Of a DNA stretch of 44,600 nt, positions 3,551-44,527 are shown piece after piece; positions within the stretch are counted from its first letter, which is position 1; the number at the start of each line of letters is the position of its first letter. The notes under the pieces are model-generated. The model saw only the letters and a program-made list of their open reading frames with translations. It ran no database searches and was not told the DNA's origin. The stretch comes from a virus: the IMG/VR virus record IMGVR_UViG_3300047388_000268, positions 1 to 44,600 of that record; one strand, 5' to 3'. The position numbers and the translations under genes are program-made.

Positions 3551-4245
3551 GAGCCGAACCGCTTCAGGAATTCGGCCCGCTTGGCGGCGGTGATCTCGGC
3601 CAGGCGCTCGCGGGTGGCCCTGGCCTCGGGCGACTCCGGTCGCGGGGCACGCTCGGGCTCGGGCTGGGCATGCGCGCGAGCCGGAGCAGTTTGATCCGGC
3701 GCAGGCTCGTGCGCGGCATCAGTAAGACTCTCTGAAAGAGAAGATATGATAGTTGATGGTTGATGGTTACGAACGGGCGTTCGGCTTAAGTCTTTGTTTT
3801 TCCTAGATGGCGACCCCATTGGATATGAGTTGGCTCGCGGTTGGCTCGCGGTTGGCTTTCGGTTGGCTCTTTGCTGACCGCTGACAAAGCCAGCCTTTAT
3901 CGAGCTTTTAATGCGGTCTTGGGCTTTGGTTAGCTCGTGGTTGGCACGCCCATTTGTGAGCCCATCACTGTCGGTCGGCTGCAACTTGCCTAGTTCGATC
4001 AAGCGGTCGATGGCCCGGCGGACACGCACGGTGGACGCCGCTCTCTGTTGACGAGTGGCATTCATTGGCAGGTCGCTCCTAAAGTGGCGATCAATATAAG
4101 CGGCATCATTCGGGCATTCGCCGCCGCGTGAATAGATCACCATGAGCACGACCATGTAGACGGCATATTCGGGCTGGGTGAGCAAGCCGAAGGTGCCAGC
4201 GATCCACTCGTCGGGCGACCAGTCGATGCGGCGCACCTTGCTCAC
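3547..4245 (-). CDS. Phage replication initiator (DUF1376/O-like)
   Basis: 232-residue replication protein. The N-terminal 90 residues (WSPDEWIAGTFGLLTQPEYAVYMVVL, with a Gly-Gly-Glu turn and YIDRHFR) resemble the winged-helix DUF1376-type domain seen in phage initiators and helicase loaders. The middle is a low-complexity linker of RAN/KPT repeats, and the C-terminus is a charged helix ending KRAEFLKRFGS. GTG start at 4245 overlaps the stop of methyltransferase 2. The linker is encoded by 11-bp DNA repeats out of step with codons, followed by an AT-rich stretch, which is the layout of lambda gene O with its internal origin. A separate loader or helicase may be supplied by the host. Confidence 0.8.
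   Translation of the reverse strand: MSKVRRIDWSPDEWIAGTFGLLTQPEYAVYMVVLMVIYSRGGECPNDAAYIDRHFRSDLPMNATRQQRAASTVRVRRAIDRLIELGKLQPTDSDGLTNGRANHELTKAQDRIKSSIKAGFVSGQQRANRKPTASQPRANSYPMGSPSRKNKDLSRTPVRNHQPSTIISSLSESLTDAAHEPAPDQTAPARAHAQPEPERAPRPESPEARATRERLAEITAAKRAEFLKRFGS
3721..3828. other. AT-rich segment next to iterons (candidate unwinding element)
   Basis: About 43% GC by hand count, in a genome that otherwise looks near 65%. It contains GTTGATG twice in tandem (3751-3766 area) and a T-rich run TCTTTGTTTTTCC. It lies directly beside the iteron array inside the initiator gene, the expected place for a DNA unwinding element. Confidence 0.6.
3829..3950. repeat. 11-bp iterons, candidate replication origin
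   Basis: Four head-to-tail 11-mers on the plus strand: GTTGGCTCGCG (3829-3839), the same (3840-3850), GTTGGCTTTCG (3851-3861), GTTGGCTCTTT (3862-3872). A second cluster has GTTAGCTCGTG (3929-3939), GTTGGCACGCC (3940-3950) and a degenerate copy at 3918-3928. Period 11 is not a multiple of 3, so the repeats are kept at DNA level and not for the protein. Spacing of one helical turn fits binding of an initiator on one face of the DNA. Confidence 0.75.
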
Positions 4246-5216
4246 GGCTGCGTCTCGACGTCGGTAAACAACGGCGCGTCGTCGGTGATGCGCTCGGTCA
4301 TCATCACCGCGTAGGCCGGGTTCAGCTCGATCAGGATGGCGTCGCGTTGCAGGCGATCAGCCACGAGGCCGGTGGTGCCGGCGCCGCCAAATGGATCAAG
4401 GACCGTGCCGCCCTTGGGGCATCCCGCCTTGATGCAGGGCTTGATCAGGTCGGGCGGGAACGTCGCGAAGTGGGCTTCCTTGAAGGGCTGCGTCGCGACA
4501 GTCCAGACCGAGCGGCGGTTGCGTCCTGCTTTCCCGTCGCCCCGAAACGCGGAAAGGCCCTGATCGCCACCTCTGCCAGCGGCATCGGCATATTGTTCGG
4601 GCACGCCCGAGTTAACGCCGGAGGCGCCCTGTCGCTCATCAGCAAACGCCTCCGCAATCGCCTCCGCGTCGTAGTGATAGCGGGCGCTCTTGCTCAACAG
4701 GAACAGGTACTCATGCGCCTTCGTGCAGCGGTCGGTGACGCTCTCCGGCATCGGGTTGGGCTTGGCCCATATGATGTCCTGCCGCAGGTACCAGCCATCG
4801 GCCTGCAGCGCGAAGGCCACGCGCCAGGGGATGCCGAGTAGGTCTTTGGGCTTTACCCCGCTCTCTCGCTTTGGTGCGGAGACCGATTTTAGGTTGGATT
4901 GCCGGGCTATTTTGTCAGGGCGAGTGCCACCGAACGCCTTAGATCCGTCGCCACCGGACAATCCATTGCCATGGTAGCTATCCCCCAGATTGAGCCACAG
5001 CGTGCCATCCTTGCGCAACACGCGGCGGACCTCGCGGAAGACCTCGACCATCACCGCCACGAACTCGGCCGGCGTCGGTTCAAGGCCGATCTGCCCAGCA
5101 ACCCCATAGTCCCGAAGCCCGAAATACGGAGGGCTCGTCACGACGCAATGCACGCTCTCGTCCGGAAGCTCGGCCAGCTTCTCGCGCACGTCGCCGATAA
5201 TGATGCGCACCGTCAT
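4242..5216 (-). CDS. DNA methyltransferase 2 (TSPPY type)
   Basis: 324-residue site-specific DNA methyltransferase, a second one in the genome and without the ParB domain. The catalytic motif is TSPPYFGLRDYG at residues 27-38 (the SPPY form is usual for N4-cytosine and some N6-adenine enzymes), and the SAM-binding motif DPFGGAGTT lies near the C-terminus, again the permuted order. The ATG at 5216 overlaps the upstream stop (ATGA); an upstream in-frame extension is not used because it lies inside the resolvase gene. Likely protects phage DNA from restriction or marks it for replication or packaging. Confidence 0.93.
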   Translation of the reverse strand: MTVRIIIGDVREKLAELPDESVHCVVTSPPYFGLRDYGVAGQIGLEPTPAEFVAVMVEVFREVRRVLRKDGTLWLNLGDSYHGNGLSGGDGSKAFGGTRPDKIARQSNLKSVSAPKRESGVKPKDLLGIPWRVAFALQADGWYLRQDIIWAKPNPMPESVTDRCTKAHEYLFLLSKSARYHYDAEAIAEAFADERQGASGVNSGVPEQYADAAGRGGDQGLSAFRGDGKAGRNRRSVWTVATQPFKEAHFATFPPDLIKPCIKAGCPKGGTVLDPFGGAGTTGLVADRLQRDAILIELNPAYAVMMTERITDDAPLFTDVETQP

Positions 5217-5719
5217 CGCATCACCATCGCCAACTGCGACGGCTCGCAATGTTCAAAAGCGACCAGGGCGACGCCGCACGCGTCGGCCTCGTGCTCGGTG
5301 GCGACGATGAAGTCGCGGCGCACGGCGGCGGCAACCATCTGCTTCTTCGACGCCTTGCCGTTGCCGGCGAGCGCGACTTTCACGGTCGACGGATGGCATT
5401 CGACGCAGCGCAGGCGGGCCACAGCGGCAACCTTTTCGGTCATGCAGGCAAAACCGTATGACATTCGGATCGCGCGCTGCTTCTGAAAAATGCGCGTGCG
5501 CGGCAGGATCGGCGCTTCGAAGGCCAGGACATGCGGCCGGTTGTCGATAACCATCAGCGCGAGCCATTTCTCGAAGGCGACGAACATCGGGCCGAAGTCG
5601 TCGCGCTTTTCCCGGCTGCGCTCGGGCGCGTGCCACGTGTTGCAAGTGGGCTTTGCCCGGCTGTGCGCGAAGAACGCCCAGCCTACATGGGTCGAGAGGT
5701 CGAGCGCGAGCAGGCGCAC
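5213..5719 (-). CDS. RuvC-like Holliday junction resolvase
   Basis: 168-residue RNase H-fold nuclease. Strand 1 carries LLALDLSTHVGW with the first acidic residue at D7. The second acid is in LAFEAP (E68), and the C-terminal helix has TEHEADACGVA with E144/D146. These are the metal ligands expected for RuvC-type resolvases, which cut four-way junctions before packaging. A conserved serine/lysine segment (HPSTVKVALAGNGKASKKQM) also matches the family. Start is GTG at 5719, two bases after the preceding stop; the frame extends upstream but within the neighbour. It sits between the helicase fusion and the origin gene, a recombination/replication setting. Confidence 0.85.
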   Translation of the reverse strand: MRLLALDLSTHVGWAFFAHSRAKPTCNTWHAPERSREKRDDFGPMFVAFEKWLALMVIDNRPHVLAFEAPILPRTRIFQKQRAIRMSYGFACMTEKVAAVARLRCVECHPSTVKVALAGNGKASKKQMVAAAVRRDFIVATEHEADACGVALVAFEHCEPSQLAMVMR

Positions 5720-13216: not shown

Positions 13217-14410
13217 ATGAGGCTCAAGTTACCCTACCGGATCAAGAAAACGGGCTACCGCGACGACGGCCTGCCCTATTTCGACCTGCTCATACCGGGG
13301 CAAAAGACAAAGCGGCTGCAGGCCACCGACAAGGCGGCCGCCGCCGCAGAGGCCGCCACGCTCTTCGAGGCGCTCGCCGCTCAGCCGGCGGTGAAGCCGA
13401 CCGCTCACGCGCACAGCCTGCGGGACGCCTTCACGACCTATCTCGCAAGCGACGCCTTCGCGCTCTACGGTCGGCTGACGCAGAGCCAGCGCCGGTCGCA
13501 GATCGGGATCGTGCTCGCCATGCCGTCGTCGGGCGGCACGCACGCGCTGGGCGAGAGCCTGCTGGCCGACTGGCTGCATGGCCCTGACGCGGCCGATGCG
13601 GTGCGCCGGGTGATGGCGCGCTGCGGGGCCAAGGCGGCGCAGGCCAACCATTTGAGGAAGGCGCTCGACCAGTTCTTTCGCTGGCTGCTCGGCGAGGAGC
13701 CGCAGGCCGCCGAGGCCCGGCTGGCGTTCGGGGTGGGCCGCCACGCCCTCAACCCATGCCGAGACGTCGGCAAGGCGCAGCCCAAGCGCTCGAAGGACGG
13801 CAGCCTAAGCCGGGGCTATACGCCGTTCACGGGCGATCAGGTCGGCGACTGGCTGACCGACTGCCGCGATGACGCCGAGCAGCACCGGGTGGTGCGCCTG
13901 CTGCTCATGACGGGCGCGCGGCTCGGGGATCTGCGCCGGCTCAACCGTAGCATGATCAAGCAGACGCCCGAGGGCCGCGTGCTGACCTACACCTGCGAGA
14001 AGGGCAAGGACTCGGCTTTCCGCCCGCCCAGCGTCGCCGTGGTGCCGATGGTGCCCGAGCTTGAGGCTCTGATTGCCGAGATACCGAGCGAGCGCTTCAT
14101 GTTCGTCCATTCCGAATACGGCAAGCCCTTCTCGTGCAACGAGGGGCTCGGCAATCGCATCCGCCTCTGGCGGCGGCAGGCCGGGCTGCCCGAGGGGCTG
14201 AGCGCCCACGGCATGCGCAAGGCGGCGACCCATTGGTGGCTGCGCCATCACCGCGACCTGATCGCCAACAACTTCTCGCTGAAAACGATTTTCGGCTGGG
14301 CGACCGACAAGGAGTTGTCGCGCTATACCGCCGACTTCGACCGCGCCGAGGAAGCGCGCGGCATGCTGATCAGGCTGGCCGACCGGCGCAAGGAGAGGAC
14401 AGCCCAATGA
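13217..14410 (+). CDS. int: Tyrosine integrase
   Basis: 397-residue site-specific recombinase that would insert and excise the phage. The N-terminal arm region (1-60) and a SAM-like core-binding domain (about 65-165) precede the catalytic domain. Catalytic residues visible: R235 in TGARLGDLRRL, H331 and R334 in SAHGMRKAATHW, W361 in IFGWATDKE, and the nucleophile Y370 in LSRYTADFD. The whole set is intact, so the phage should be able to form lysogens. ATG at 13217; the stop overlaps the next gene (ATGA). Confidence 0.95.
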   Translation: MRLKLPYRIKKTGYRDDGLPYFDLLIPGQKTKRLQATDKAAAAAEAATLFEALAAQPAVKPTAHAHSLRDAFTTYLASDAFALYGRLTQSQRRSQIGIVLAMPSSGGTHALGESLLADWLHGPDAADAVRRVMARCGAKAAQANHLRKALDQFFRWLLGEEPQAAEARLAFGVGRHALNPCRDVGKAQPKRSKDGSLSRGYTPFTGDQVGDWLTDCRDDAEQHRVVRLLLMTGARLGDLRRLNRSMIKQTPEGRVLTYTCEKGKDSAFRPPSVAVVPMVPELEALIAEIPSERFMFVHSEYGKPFSCNEGLGNRIRLWRRQAGLPEGLSAHGMRKAATHWWLRHHRDLIANNFSLKTIFGWATDKELSRYTADFDRAEEARGMLIRLADRRKERTAQ

Positions 14411-40767: not shown

Positions 40768-42456
40768 CTAGATGACGAAGATCGACTGGTCGCCGCCGGT
40801 CATCGACGCGGTGTAGCGGCCGATGGCCATGATGAGCGCGCACATGCCGTCGATGCGGCCGATGCTGTGCTGCTTGTGCGGCATCTCGTTGAAGTTCTTG
40901 TCGCGCTGCACCTTCAGGTTCGACGCCATCACGGTCAGCACCGGATTGTTGCCGTGGTCGAGCTTGCGGCCGGCGAGCAGCGCCTGCAGTTCCTTGGTCG
41001 GCGCGGTGTAGGAGCGCAGGCCCTGTATGAACTCCACCATGTTCACGCCATCGGACGTGAGCTCGCTTGAAAGCTGCGTCGCGTTCCACGGATCGAAGGC
41101 GATGTCCTGCAGGTCGAAGTGCTTGCTGTCGGCCAAAACAGCCGCCTTGATCTCGGCATGATCGATGACATTCCCCGGCGTCACCTCGATCCACCCCTCG
41201 TCAACCCATCGCCGATAGGGCATGCGATCCCGGTCGGCCCTCTCCTCCAGCGTGTCGGCCGGCATCCAGAAGCGCGAGGCGACACGCATGACGCCCGCTT
41301 CGTCCGGCTCGAACAGTTTTACGAACGCCGTGATGTCGATCTTCGACGACAGGTCGAGCCCGCCCCAGCAGCGCGCCCGTTCGAGCTTGTCGGGGTCGAA
41401 GCGGCCGCGGCTGTTCCTCGCCCACGTCGCCATGTCGATGGCGGCCTCGGCCGGCGCCGTGCGCACGTTGAGCCGCAGCCGCTTGAATGCCGAGAGCGCG
41501 CCCGGCGACTTGCCGGCCTTGCGCGCCTGCCGTTCGAGGTCGTCGCGCTTGACGCTGATGCCGAGGTTCGGATTGGCCTTCGCCCAGGCCACCGGGTCGT
41601 CCCAGCGGTCGCCCTTGTCGATGGTGGCGATGAAGGCGAACACGTCGTCGTCCTCGAGCACGCCTTCCAGCACCTTGGTGGCGTAGTCGTTCTCCGATGC
41701 GTAGACGCTCTCGGGACTGTCGTCGCCGGCCGTCGTGATGATCCACAGCAGCGGTTGGCGCCTGGAGCCGAGCGCGGTGTCCATCACGTCGAGCAGCGCG
41801 CGCGTGCGGTGGCGGTGGAGCTCGTCGACCAGCACGCCGTGCGGGTTGAGGCCGTCGAGCGTGCGGTCGTCCGATGACAGCGGCTCGAACTTCGAGTTGG
41901 TGACGTCGACCGAGAGGTTGAGCTTGAAACGGCTCACCACGCGCAGCAGGTCGGGCGACGTCGTTACCATCCGCTTCGCTTCGTCAAAAATAATGCGCGC
42001 CTGGTCGCGCTTGGTGGCGGCGGCGTAGATTTCCGCGCCCTGTTCGCCGTCGCACGTCAGCAGGTCGAGGCCGACGCCCGCGAGCAAGGTGCTCTTGCCG
42101 TTCTTTCGCGGCAGCTCCTGATAGACGTAGCGAAAGCGGCGCGTGCCGTCGCGGCGCTTCCAGCCGAACACCGAGCCAATCACGAAACGCTGCCAGGGGC
42201 TGAGCGACACCGGCTTGCGCGCCCATTCGCCTTTGCTGTGCCGCAAGAAGCGCTCGTAAAACCCGATGCGGTGCTGGGCGACGGCGGGCCGCCATGTCAG
42301 CCCGCGCTTCGGCCCGCGCTTCAGGTCCGTCAGGTGCCGCTTGCAGGCCAGCCGCACCAGCCGGCAGGCGACGACCTCCTTAGCGCATACGGCGCGCGCA
42401 TAGGCCGTCGCGTCGTCAAGCGCAGGCGGCCCAGCAGCCTTACTTTTCCGGGGCAT
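40768..42456 (-). CDS. terL: Terminase large subunit
   Basis: 562 residues. ATPase part: Walker A PRKNGKST (116-123) and Walker B VLVDELH (208-214). Nuclease part: GGLDLSSKIDIT (365-376) with the first metal-binding Asp. The family is the HK97/Terminase_1 (YmfN-like) type, whose relatives usually package from cos sites, although this must be tested. First minus-strand gene after the plus-strand cassette, so it needs a promoter in 42457-42561 or read-through from terS across the cassette. Confidence 0.95.
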   Translation of the reverse strand: MPRKSKAAGPPALDDATAYARAVCAKEVVACRLVRLACKRHLTDLKRGPKRGLTWRPAVAQHRIGFYERFLRHSKGEWARKPVSLSPWQRFVIGSVFGWKRRDGTRRFRYVYQELPRKNGKSTLLAGVGLDLLTCDGEQGAEIYAAATKRDQARIIFDEAKRMVTTSPDLLRVVSRFKLNLSVDVTNSKFEPLSSDDRTLDGLNPHGVLVDELHRHRTRALLDVMDTALGSRRQPLLWIITTAGDDSPESVYASENDYATKVLEGVLEDDDVFAFIATIDKGDRWDDPVAWAKANPNLGISVKRDDLERQARKAGKSPGALSAFKRLRLNVRTAPAEAAIDMATWARNSRGRFDPDKLERARCWGGLDLSSKIDITAFVKLFEPDEAGVMRVASRFWMPADTLEERADRDRMPYRRWVDEGWIEVTPGNVIDHAEIKAAVLADSKHFDLQDIAFDPWNATQLSSELTSDGVNMVEFIQGLRSYTAPTKELQALLAGRKLDHGNNPVLTVMASNLKVQRDKNFNEMPHKQHSIGRIDGMCALIMAIGRYTASMTGGDQSIFVI

Positions 42457-42491
42457 TCAGGGGCCTCCGCAGGGTGCGACAGTCTGGCATA

Positions 42492-42520
42492 TTGGCCCTA
42501 TTTCTATGGCCGACCATATT
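42492..42520 (+). promoter_or_regulatory. Candidate promoter of the five-gene cassette
   Basis: TTGGCC (42492-42497), 17 bp, CATATT (42515-42520), 41 bases before the GTG start. ATATT also occurs at 42489 in the same phase-like repeat with GGCC. It is in the divergent 105-bp gap before terL, unusually A/T-rich for this genome. Confidence 0.5.
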
Positions 42521-42561
42521 AGTAAGACCAGCGGCGAACACCGCCCAGAAGGAGACGATCA

Positions 42562-42819
42562 GTGAAAAGCCCGCTTCCCCCAGTCGCTTACGACCCGACC
42601 GCTTACTACCCTATCACGGTGAGCTTCGGCGCCATGATTGACGACATGATCGAAACGGTCGGCCCCGAGGAAACCTTGAAGATCGCCGGCCGCGCCATCG
42701 GCATCCCGGCCTCAGCCCTCAGCCTCATGCTCGGCCAGATCGTCCACCAAGGCCGCGTGATTAGGGCCGGCGACCGTCGCCGGGTGCGCGCCGCGATCAA
42801 TCAGGCGATGGAAATATGA
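42562..42819 (+). CDS. Cassette gene 1, small helical protein, 85 aa
   Basis: GTG at 42562 with the repeated leader. Residues about 20-85 (GAMIDDMIETVGPEETLKIA, GIPASALSLMLGQIVHQGRV, RRRVRAAINQAMEI) read as a small helical, possibly DNA-binding protein. Not recognised. Overlaps cassette gene 2 by ATGA. Confidence 0.7.
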   Translation: MKSPLPPVAYDPTAYYPITVSFGAMIDDMIETVGPEETLKIAGRAIGIPASALSLMLGQIVHQGRVIRAGDRRRVRAAINQAMEI

Positions 42820-43034
42820 GCCAGAAACTTCTACAGGCCGCCGGCACCGCATTGTGGGGTCCGCAGTATCGCTCGGAAATGGCCCGCCAGCTTGGCCGCA
42901 ATCTGCGGACGGTGATGCGCTGGGACAGCGGCGAGCGCCCGGTGCCCAAGGATGCGTTGGCGCGATTAGCCGACCTTCTGAAAATCCGGGCCGTAGAAAT
43001 TATCGAAGTACGCCGCAAGTTGCGCGGCAAGTAA
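42816..43034 (+). CDS. Cassette gene 2, HTH protein, 72 aa
   Basis: SEMARQLGRNLRTVMRWDSG followed by ERPVPKDALARLADLLKIRA looks like a Cro/YdaS-like helix-turn-helix, and the tail (VRRKLRGK) is basic. May regulate the cassette or the phage switch. ATGA overlap with gene 1 suggests one operon. Confidence 0.72.
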   Translation: MSQKLLQAAGTALWGPQYRSEMARQLGRNLRTVMRWDSGERPVPKDALARLADLLKIRAVEIIEVRRKLRGK

Positions 43035-43046
43035 GGAGACGATCAG

Positions 43047-43118
43047 CCCTTCAGGCCCGCCACCGCAAGGTGCGCGGGCTTAGGGCAGTGGGGGCGCACT
43101 TCCGCCGGCCCGTTATCA
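43047..43118 (+). other. Orphan leader followed by alternative hairpins
   Basis: After the leader copy at 43035-43046 there is no start codon. AGGCCCGC (43053-43060) can pair with GCGGGCTT (43074-43081), and AGGTGCGC (43068-43075) with GCGCACTT (43094-43101). The two stems overlap by two bases and exclude each other. The next gene begins at 43129. Confidence 0.4.
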
Positions 43119-43128
43119 GGAGACGATC

Positions 43129-43353
43129 ATGGCTACCAAGACTGACAAGCCCGCCAAGAAGGCCAAGTCGGCGGCACCGGCTCAGCGCGCCTTCAAGCGC
43201 AACCAGCCAGTCCGCATTCAACACGCCGCCGGCAAATTCGAGACTGGCCGCATTGTGCGCGCGGATCACCAGTTGACCGGCTGGTATATCGTCCGCTTCG
43301 ACATGGACGGGGCGACGCTCTGCGTTGCCGCCACCAGCCTGACGGAGGGCTGA
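43129..43353 (+). CDS. Cassette gene 3, small basic protein, 74 aa
   Basis: Lys/Ala-rich N-terminal tail (TKTDKPAKKAKSAAPAQRAF), then a beta-rich part (QPVRIQHAAGKFETGRIVRA, GWYIVRFDMDGATLCVAA) that resembles a KOW/SH3-like barrel. Preceded by the repeated leader. Not recognised. Confidence 0.72.
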   Translation: MATKTDKPAKKAKSAAPAQRAFKRNQPVRIQHAAGKFETGRIVRADHQLTGWYIVRFDMDGATLCVAATSLTEG

Positions 43354-43404
43354 TCCGCGCAGCCCGCGCCGGTCAATAAATTGTCGGCAAAGGTCAATGG
43401 GCGT

Positions 43405-43438
43405 CAGCCCCGCTCCGGGTAAAACGGACGCGGGGCTG
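43405..43438 (+). other. Long hairpin in the cassette
   Basis: CAGCCCCGC (43405-43413) pairs with GCGGGGCTG (43430-43438), extended inside by TCCG/CGGA across a GGTAAAA loop with one bulge. No T-run follows. It lies in the 133-bp gap before gene 4 and may end or stabilise the upstream transcript. Confidence 0.5.
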
Positions 43439-43486
43439 CTCCCGTGCCGGGGCTCAATCCCGAGACCCCTATTTGGAGACGATCAG

Positions 43487-43711
43487 ATGATGGTGTTGAT
43501 CTTAGTGGGCGCGCTGCTCGCGCTCGTCGTTATTGGCATATTCGCGCCCGCGCGCGCTCGCCGTGCCCGCGAGCAAGCCGGTCGGCAACATGTCGATATG
43601 CTGCGCGCCATGGGCGCTGAACCGCCAAAGGCCGACACCCGCAAATGGTCGAAGGCCGACAAAGCCCGCCTAAGCGCAAAACCTGACCTTGCCATCAAAC
43701 TAGACAACTAG
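43487..43711 (+). CDS. Cassette gene 4, single-TM protein, 74 aa
   Basis: Hydrophobic N-terminal segment VLILVGALLALVVIGIFAP (residues 3-21) then a basic cytoplasmic part (ARARRAREQAGRQ, DTRKWSKADKARL). ATG follows the leader at 43475-43486; a second ATG comes directly after. Membrane location plus the adjacent lipoprotein fits a superinfection-exclusion pair. Confidence 0.75.
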   Translation: MMVLILVGALLALVVIGIFAPARARRAREQAGRQHVDMLRAMGAEPPKADTRKWSKADKARLSAKPDLAIKLDN

Positions 43712-43722
43712 GAGACGATCAG

Positions 43723-44019
43723 ATGAAGTTTTTCCTGTCCGCGCTCGCCTGCGTGCTGGCCGTCCTCGGCGCAGCCGGTTGCGTCACCGTCGATGACGGC
43801 CGTCGCGTAGGGGCTGACGGGTCGCGCGAGGTTTCTGTGATCCTCAATTACCCGAAAGCGACGACGCAGGAGGGCGCCCTGCGAGAGATCGAGGCGCACG
43901 CTGACGCGCGCATGACGGCGACGTGTACTGCGGCGGGACAGGACGCGCCGGTCGTCATGCACCGTGTCTGGATGGCAATCAATTTTCTGATGGTCACTTA
44001 CAGGTGCGGCGCGGCATAG
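43723..44019 (+). CDS. Cassette gene 5, outer-membrane-type lipoprotein, 98 aa
   Basis: MKFFLSALACVLAVLGAAGC is a lipoprotein signal with lipobox LGAAGC (Cys20). The mature part (SVILNYPKATTQEGALREIE, DAPVVMHRVWMAINFLMVTY) is a small mixed domain with two Cys in its second half (TATCTAAG and YRCGAA). Residue 21 after the Cys is Val, which does not match an inner-membrane retention Asp. Phage lipoproteins of this kind often block infection by relatives. The stop is one base from the convergent terS stop. Confidence 0.8.
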   Translation: MKFFLSALACVLAVLGAAGCVTVDDGRRVGADGSREVSVILNYPKATTQEGALREIEAHADARMTATCTAAGQDAPVVMHRVWMAINFLMVTYRCGAA

Positions 44020-44020
44020 C

Positions 44021-44527
44021 CTACTCGTCGAGCTTGTCCGGCTTCTCGGCGAGATATGCGGCGAGCGGCGTGCCGGCGATCTGGCCGGCGCGCCCGGTCC
44101 CAGGCAACGGCTCGCCGCGCCCGATGCTGGCGCGCGATGACGGGCTGAAGCCCATCTCGGCGCCGGCCCGCAACATGATCAGCGCCTGCCTGTTTACCAC
44201 CGGCAGGAATGGATTTTGGATCGCGTTGCCTTCCTTCGTCTTGACCACCTGGCCAAGCTTGCGGACCTCCTGAGCGGCGCGCGCGTGCTCGACGCTGGCC
44301 ACCGTCCACACCACCAGCACCTCGCGGTCGGTTCCTGTCAGCAAGCCCGGCGAGGCGTTCTCAATGGCGTAATTCCACTGCGCGCGCTGCTCGTCGTCGA
44401 ACCACGCGGGCGGTGCCCACAGGATGCCGACGCCCTCGGGCTCGTCAGTCGGCAGCGGTTCCTTCCGCGGGTTGCCGTGCAGCAGCCGCAGATGCGTCGG
44501 TTTCGGCTTCGTGCCTCGCGCTCCCAT
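44021..44527 (-). CDS. terS: Terminase small subunit (P27 family)
   Basis: 168 residues. MGARGTKPKPTHLRLLHGNP is the diagnostic P27 start; PAWFDDEQRAQWNYAIENAS, GTDREVLVVWTVASVEHARA and a C-terminal FSPSSRASIG... segment follow. Recognises the packaging start and guides terL. GGAGG five bases before ATG at 44527, inside the end of methyltransferase 1. The plus-strand cassette separates it from terL, whereas in relatives the two are adjacent. Its first 54 bases are also present at the window start. Confidence 0.93.
   Translation of the reverse strand: MGARGTKPKPTHLRLLHGNPRKEPLPTDEPEGVGILWAPPAWFDDEQRAQWNYAIENASPGLLTGTDREVLVVWTVASVEHARAAQEVRKLGQVVKTKEGNAIQNPFLPVVNRQALIMLRAGAEMGFSPSSRASIGRGEPLPGTGRAGQIAGTPLAAYLAEKPDKLDE

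Follow-up and report, generated by a model that had tools for sequence, protein, structure and literature searches.

Five open reading frames (ORFs) on the plus strand, at positions 42562-44019 of a 44.6 kb virus record (hereafter the window, meaning the whole stretch of DNA that was analysed), lie between the minus-strand genes terS and terL. The initial annotation had described them as an oppositely oriented five-gene cassette splitting the two terminase genes; the ORFs were found where it had placed them, and the identities of terS and terL were confirmed by Pfam and PHROGs (Table 1). The gap between the terminase genes spans 42457-44020. Along the window, genes lie on the minus strand up to about 9 kb, on the plus strand between about 9 and 18 kb, and on the minus strand again in the remainder, and the cassette thus forms an isolated plus-strand island in the late region. 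Its ORFs are small, lie in DNA of 63% GC, and have a GC3 of 0.76 compared with 0.84 in the late genes. The window also encodes an integrase (13217-14410), RecT, an exonuclease and an endolysin, a gene content that indicates a temperate phage. Two DNA methyltransferase genes were additionally observed, one (2-1480) fused to a ParB-like nuclease domain and the other at 4242-5249.

Table 1. Features of the terS-terL junction in the window.
Feature	Position	Strand	Basis or remark
terL, flank	40768..42456	-	Pfam, PHROGs
5′ leader from terL start to orf1, ending in start motif; putative promoter region	42457..42561	+	
Start motif copy 1 (GGAGACGATCA), before orf1	42551..42561	+	exact match
orf1, 85 aa, GTG start, no family	42562..42819	+	no IMG/VR relative
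orf2, 72 aa HTH, Aca2/YdiL-like	42816..43034	+	family profile vs PDB, Pfam
Start motif copy 2, orphan, no ORF after	43035..43045	+	exact match
Two-hairpin leader 1: bulged GNRA hairpin 43053-43081, then second hairpin	43046..43118	+	
Start motif copy 3, overlapping orf3 ATG	43119..43129	+	exact match
orf3, 74 aa chimera	43129..43353	+	DNA/protein similarity to L011, L209
Two-hairpin leader 2: bulged hairpin 43405-43438, second hairpin directly downstream, then TATTT	43398..43474	+	fold z -4.4
Start motif copy 4, before orf4	43475..43485	+	exact match
orf4, 74 aa, one N-terminal TM helix	43487..43711	+	max KD19 3.09
Start motif copy 5, before orf5	43711..43721	+	exact match
orf5, 98 aa predicted lipoprotein	43723..44019	+	signal peptide, lipobox LGAAGC
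terS, flank	44021..44527	-	Pfam, PHROGs

Searching with TerL retrieved 69 loci (referred to by L and a number, as are the other contigs compared), and a TerL tree was built of 35 sequences. Where terS could be located, the terS-terL junction was closed (0-14 bp, for example in L012, L017, L019, L021, L023, L024, L033 and L048), short (23-192 bp) or filled (0.5-4 kb). The two genes had been said to be normally adjacent, and in cassette-less relatives they do abut (L012, 5 bp; L017, 2 bp; L048, 11 bp). A gap of at least 400 bp was present in 16 of the 35 TerL relatives, with 3 changes on the tree compared with about 12 when labels were shuffled. Within the nearest TerL clade, eight of nine phages have a 0.7-2.2 kb gap filled on the opposite strand, the exception being L012, and most genes in filled gaps are oriented opposite to terL. 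Presence or absence at the site varied among related phages, a comparison that the initial annotation had proposed, and the pattern it had set against its own reading, namely related phages all carrying the same genes in the same orientation, was not found: the orientation is the same, the genes differ. A DNA search of named phages and plasmids gave no match, and GTDB contigs contained no close relative, only distant TerLs in Firmicutes. One relative, L037, encodes at 1874-2899 a 341-aa protein that lies in the terS-terL gap on the terL strand and has no PHROG match.

The lipoprotein, single-TM and HTH genes that had been proposed for the cassette were all recovered, with a lipobox (LGAAGC), one TM helix and an HTH. 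The accompanying claim that all five products fall outside recognised families held for orf1, orf4 and orf5, while orf2 is Aca2/YdiL-like. For orf4 there was no Pfam family (PF14373 included), for orf5 no Pfam or PHROGs family, and none of these three genes had relatives in IMG/VR. The mature part of orf5 has two further Cys. A single-sequence model of orf1 was all helical at low confidence (pLDDT 67), and single-sequence folds of orf1 and orf5 were of low confidence and too weak for structure searching. orf1 runs into orf2 through an ATGA overlap. The best PDB matches of the orf2 HTH family profile were YdiL (5e-5) and Aca2 (0.008), and Pfam Aca2_YdiL (PF08965) was matched by 5 of 6 family members with a best E of 7.7e-5, whereas orf2 of the window fell below the cut-off (13.4 bits versus 23.8, E 0.087). 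Judged by these profiles, orf2 is related to Aca2/YdiL, not a filed member of the family. Its dN/dS of 0.10 against the nearest homologue, L207, indicates purifying selection. The HTH homologues in L208-L210 sit in other contigs, and in L208 and L209 the homologue precedes a terS-like gene and points the same way. orf3 joins a Lys/Ala-rich start, with DNA 91% identical to the start of L011's DUF3489 protein, to an SH3/KOW-like body nearly identical to L209 3021-3236, the latter with a dN/dS of 0.26 against its nearest homologue, again indicating purifying selection.

A short sequence, GGAGACGATCA, has five exact copies in the window, all of them within the terS-terL gap and in plus orientation. 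Four copies are at a start codon (0-2 nt off, or overlapping it), and the remaining copy is an orphan, whose counterpart in L007 follows the homologous HTH end and is itself followed by a secreted-protein gene. When up to one mismatch was allowed, the window contained 6 matches versus 1.0 expected, and 0 of 100 shuffles had as many. The motif is not common to the late genes of the window, whose upstream 22 bases all differ. Its common form, AGGAGACGATCA, combines a Shine-Dalgarno core with a conserved tail that abuts the start codon. The 16S tail has the complement AGAAAGGAGGTGATCC; AAGGAG of the motif matches it, GATC matches again, and the AGGAG part is at normal Shine-Dalgarno spacing. Inserted bases after GGAG in L008 (GGAGAGACGATCAATG) and L009 (GGAGACGACGATCATG) leave the motif tail beside the start codon, and because the tail stays there despite the insertions, we think it may be kept for its own sake. 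The seven relatives L005-L011 have 1-3 exact copies per record, on one strand only and all but one (in L010) in the gap. Scanning IMG/VR for the motif followed by ATG gave 8 stretches, 2 of them from this phage group; another such match, in L078, looked like chance. A second repeated junction, GGCGGAGGGCTGAGCCATG, joins short ORFs in the cassettes of L005 (2791-3250) and L007 (2547-2949), where one gene ends in ..KAEG or ..AEG and the next ATG follows, and the end of orf3 in the window (..LTEG, GGAGGGCTGATCC) is similar to it.

These observations bear on whether the ORFs are genes at all. Small ORFs in 63% GC DNA could be spurious products of the antisense strand of a long terS-terL spacer, and three of them (orf1, orf4 and orf5) are orphans. 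We regard this explanation as very improbable, since the start motif is present at four starts, the GC3 pattern and the purifying selection on orf2 and orf3 argue against it, and there are homologues in unrelated phages as well as Pfam families in the relatives.

The closest known thing to the motif is the pair of start-associated elements, SAS and ESAS, of Cluster K mycobacteriophages, which likewise have no settled function (PMC3203893). In both systems a short repeat, asymmetric and built around AGGAG, stands a few nucleotides before starts (PMC3203893), and both serve non-structural genes of different families, mostly in one orientation and with larger intergenic gaps. They also share conserved bases beyond the Shine-Dalgarno pairing and an occasional orphan copy. 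About half of the mycobacteriophage copies have an imperfect inverted repeat just upstream, compared with copies 3 and 4 of 5 in the cassette. The sequences differ, however (GGGATAGGAGCCC for SAS, AGGAGACGATCA here), and SAS has 11-19 copies over the right genome half, whereas the cassette motif has 1-5 copies in one antisense island. The inverted repeat of ESAS is 17 bp long and conserved in sequence, while the cassette leaders contain a pair of hairpins, with a bulge and in most cases a GNRA loop, and the two groups of phages are unrelated. By analogy, the start motif and hairpins would work like SAS/ESAS while belonging to a different sequence family, and the phenomenon would reach beyond mycobacteriophages into a phage group unrelated to them, in which the RNA structure covaries.

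The structured leaders have a common plan. The first hairpin is GC-rich, with a single base bulging out on the 3′ side and an upper stem of 4 bp that is usually capped by a GNRA loop; a second hairpin and then the start motif follow. They precede orf3 and orf4 in the window (motif copies 3 and 4 of 5) and also genes in L005, L006, L008, L009, L010 and L015; leader 2 is common to L005 (93%), L006, L008 and L009. In 790 kb of loci a strict descriptor matched 8 hairpins, each lying in a terS-terL gap and on the cassette strand, compared with 2 in reversed controls, and a covariance model gave the same hairpin places and one more in the gap of L031. Among 11 distinct aligned sequences, 97% of cells were paired and 7 of 12 pairs had changed on both sides, a count that leans in its own favour because the sequences were aligned to fit the structure and some of them came from the descriptor, which requires pairing. 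The covariation score was 0.514 against 0.164 ± 0.033 (0 of 500 as high), and shifting the partner by one column reduced pairing to 40-47%. No Rfam family reached its gathering score for the leader. We rejected the hairpin shape as a unique signature, as 35 sequences with a complementary upper stem were present among the at least 119 IMG/VR matches listed; since many matches in unrelated phages precede T runs, like ordinary terminators, the shape alone is not specific. Separately, twelve IMG/VR contigs of other phages (L096, L099, L101, L113, L115, L126, L140, L155, L160, L162, L163 and L199) have a bulged GNRA hairpin followed by CATTTGCTTTGGAGACC and ATG, with downstream genes of similar starts, and represent another conserved structured leader.

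Small genes in one orientation, separated by imperfect hairpins with an extrahelical base, also bring to mind an integron-like cassette array in which the hairpins are attC-type recombination sites. That reading is extremely improbable, as no paired GTTRRRY/RYYYAAC cores were found at the hairpins, and attC-type sites were rejected because such cores do not flank them. Moreover, the gap contains no integron integrase, the integrase of the window being of phage type and far away, and the hairpin is absent from some junctions.

A promoter of its own had been claimed for the cassette, and this part of the initial annotation was not confirmed: no sigma-70 consensus promoter was found in the gap of the window or in three relatives, for a host whose promoters may differ. 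The best hand-picked hexamers, TTGGCC-17-CATATT in the 5′ leader, had only 8 of 12 matches. The stretch 42401-42562, which includes this leader, is 89% identical to its counterpart in the sister phage L005. Alignment of the upstream regions of the relatives gave two sub-groups only, with no leader common to all, and thus no promoter could be inferred from conservation. At the other end, the operons of L005-L011 finish shortly before the terS stop in a strong terminator of the AGCCCCGGC-loop-GCCGGGGCTTTT type. This terminator, conserved in those seven relatives, is absent from the window, where a single base separates the TAG stop of orf5 from the end of terS (44005-44025), and a terminator search of the window gap itself called none. 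The missing terminator suggests a deletion in the window, and without it cassette transcripts may run antisense through terS.

Leader hairpins could still act as terminators. The leader as a whole might be a conditional terminator or attenuator, with hairpin 2 and a T-rich stretch placing the cassette under RNA control, a reading compatible with the moron-type interpretation developed below and one that we consider possible but doubtful. TATTT, TTTTTT or ATTTT comes after hairpin 2 and directly before GGAG in several copies, the third hairpin 1 copy of L015 ends in TTT after a gene end, and the same hairpin shape with T runs in unrelated phages resembles an ordinary terminator; however, leader copy 1 of the window is without a T run and no terminator was called in the gap.

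Comparison of the window with L005 showed a common 5′ leader, first part of the HTH gene, second leader and signal-sequence start of the last gene, and little else. Three similarity blocks (42401-42562, 43370-43489 and 43711-43762) end at the motif. Block ends were within 5 nt of a motif copy in 16.7% of cases versus 4.8% expected by chance (no simulation out of 5000 reached the observed value), in a test that is biased because a conserved motif between unrelated sequences itself attracts alignment ends. In many other relatives the first place of the cassette is taken by a Lys-rich DUF3489 (HTH-like) protein. The slot of orf4, behind the same second leader, is filled in L006, L008 and L009 by proteins of PF14373 (56-58 bits versus a cut-off of 27.9), which were found in these three only and always in the gap; they also match phrog_1039, 'immunity to superinfection', at 4e-21. 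The last cassette gene has a signal peptide or lipobox in the window, L005, L007, L009 and L010.

It is well supported that the cassette is accessory, swappable and self-contained in its translation signals, and we consider it probable, judging from sequence comparison, that its small, interchangeable genes make up an accessory operon of moron type, which lies antisense at the junction of terS and terL in a temperate phage. An antisense orientation to lytic genes together with an own promoter is characteristic of moron loci (PMC7067206). The moron layout that had been proposed was upheld by the isolated opposite-strand patch, the integrase, the presence/absence pattern, the turnover of content and the lower GC3. 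Absent from the initial annotation were the start motif, the hairpin leaders, the Aca2/YdiL-like nature of orf2 and the loss of the terminator. The cassette shares with morons (PMC7067206) its position on the opposite strand among late genes, presence and absence, lower GC3 and products of the lysogenic-conversion type. It differs from them in being a multi-gene island with a shared start motif, in which no sigma-70 promoter was found and, in the window, the terminator is missing. A moron-like accessory island is thus supported; the term in its strict sense requires expression in the lysogen, which we infer.

In this moron-type operon, each gene or gene pair would start at the common AGGAGACGATCA, in several cases behind a leader with two RNA hairpins. 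With this leader in common, any inserted gene would receive an identical translation signal and perhaps identical regulation, and the leader may serve as a joint for homologous recombination, by which genes would be traded as modules between phages. The end near terL would be regulatory, with the Aca2/YdiL-type HTH or, in relatives, the DUF3489 protein, and the end near terS would in several genomes be directed to the envelope, with a TM or Imm protein followed by an exported protein or lipoprotein.

Exclusion of related phages had been suggested from the lipoprotein and TM genes. The suggestion gained indirect support from the Imm gene in the same slot of three relatives; in the window itself, neither the TM protein nor the lipoprotein could be assigned to a family. 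Imm_superinfect (PF14373/phrog_1039) occupies the TM-gene slot in those close relatives behind the same leader, whereas the TM protein of the window is outside this family. Lipoprotein exclusion factors do exist, for example Ltp of TP-J34 (PMC3952083). Superinfection exclusion is our best guess for the envelope half, on grounds of slot equivalence and protein type, and the products most likely confer superinfection exclusion or other host-surface or defence-related traits in the lysogen.

For the orf1-orf2 half, the main rival is an anti-defence (anti-CRISPR-like) operon, in which orf1 and the small ORFs of relatives would be early anti-defence proteins, orf2 an Aca-type autorepressor, and the hairpins perhaps RNA or DNA operators. 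Variable small ORFs do run into a conserved short HTH gene (by the ATGA overlap in the window, and as three ORFs then the HTH in L005 and L007), as in acr-aca operons with Aca2-type regulators, where a small ORF overlaps a short Aca2/YdiL-type HTH gene. The YdiL and Aca2 matches of the HTH profile, and Pfam Aca2_YdiL in 5 of 6 members, point the same way, as do the same strand, gaps below 250 bp and proteins below 200 aa, three of the features by which AcaFinder defines short-gene operons (PMC9765179). In archaeal viruses, anti-defence genes have been located through the regulatory sequences that they share (PMC11065993). Nevertheless, we judge this reading unlikely. A PADLOC search, which covers defence proteins and not Acrs, gave only an HTH match, orf2 of the window alone scores under the Pfam cut-off, and the envelope-protein genes set the operon apart from acr-aca loci, the TM and lipoprotein genes suiting exclusion better. 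The hairpins and the HTH do not co-occur across relatives: L007 has the HTH without a hairpin, and L006, L008, L009, L010 and L015 have hairpins without such an HTH. The hairpin was accordingly dropped as a target of the Aca2-like protein.

A bolder form of the moron-type interpretation, speculative and rather unlikely in our view, is that leader and motif make up an undescribed, covarying RNA plug-in socket, which would combine regulation in RNA form with a recombination joint for trading exclusion or anti-defence genes, and on which the phage's Aca2/YdiL-like or DUF3489 proteins would act. The role of such leaders becomes testable here in a compact 1.5 kb system. In addition, the start motif combined with the terS-terL position may provide a sequence handle with which candidate genes for exclusion and anti-defence could be collected from uncultured phages; most such genes belong to no family.

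DUF3489-like genes were also seen elsewhere. In L017 and L021, which have no terS-terL gap, a Lys-rich, weak DUF3489 relative lies antisense between capsid and portal (L086 3381-3806 in the L017 record and L087 3460-3831 in the L021 record), a second antisense insertion site within the late operon.
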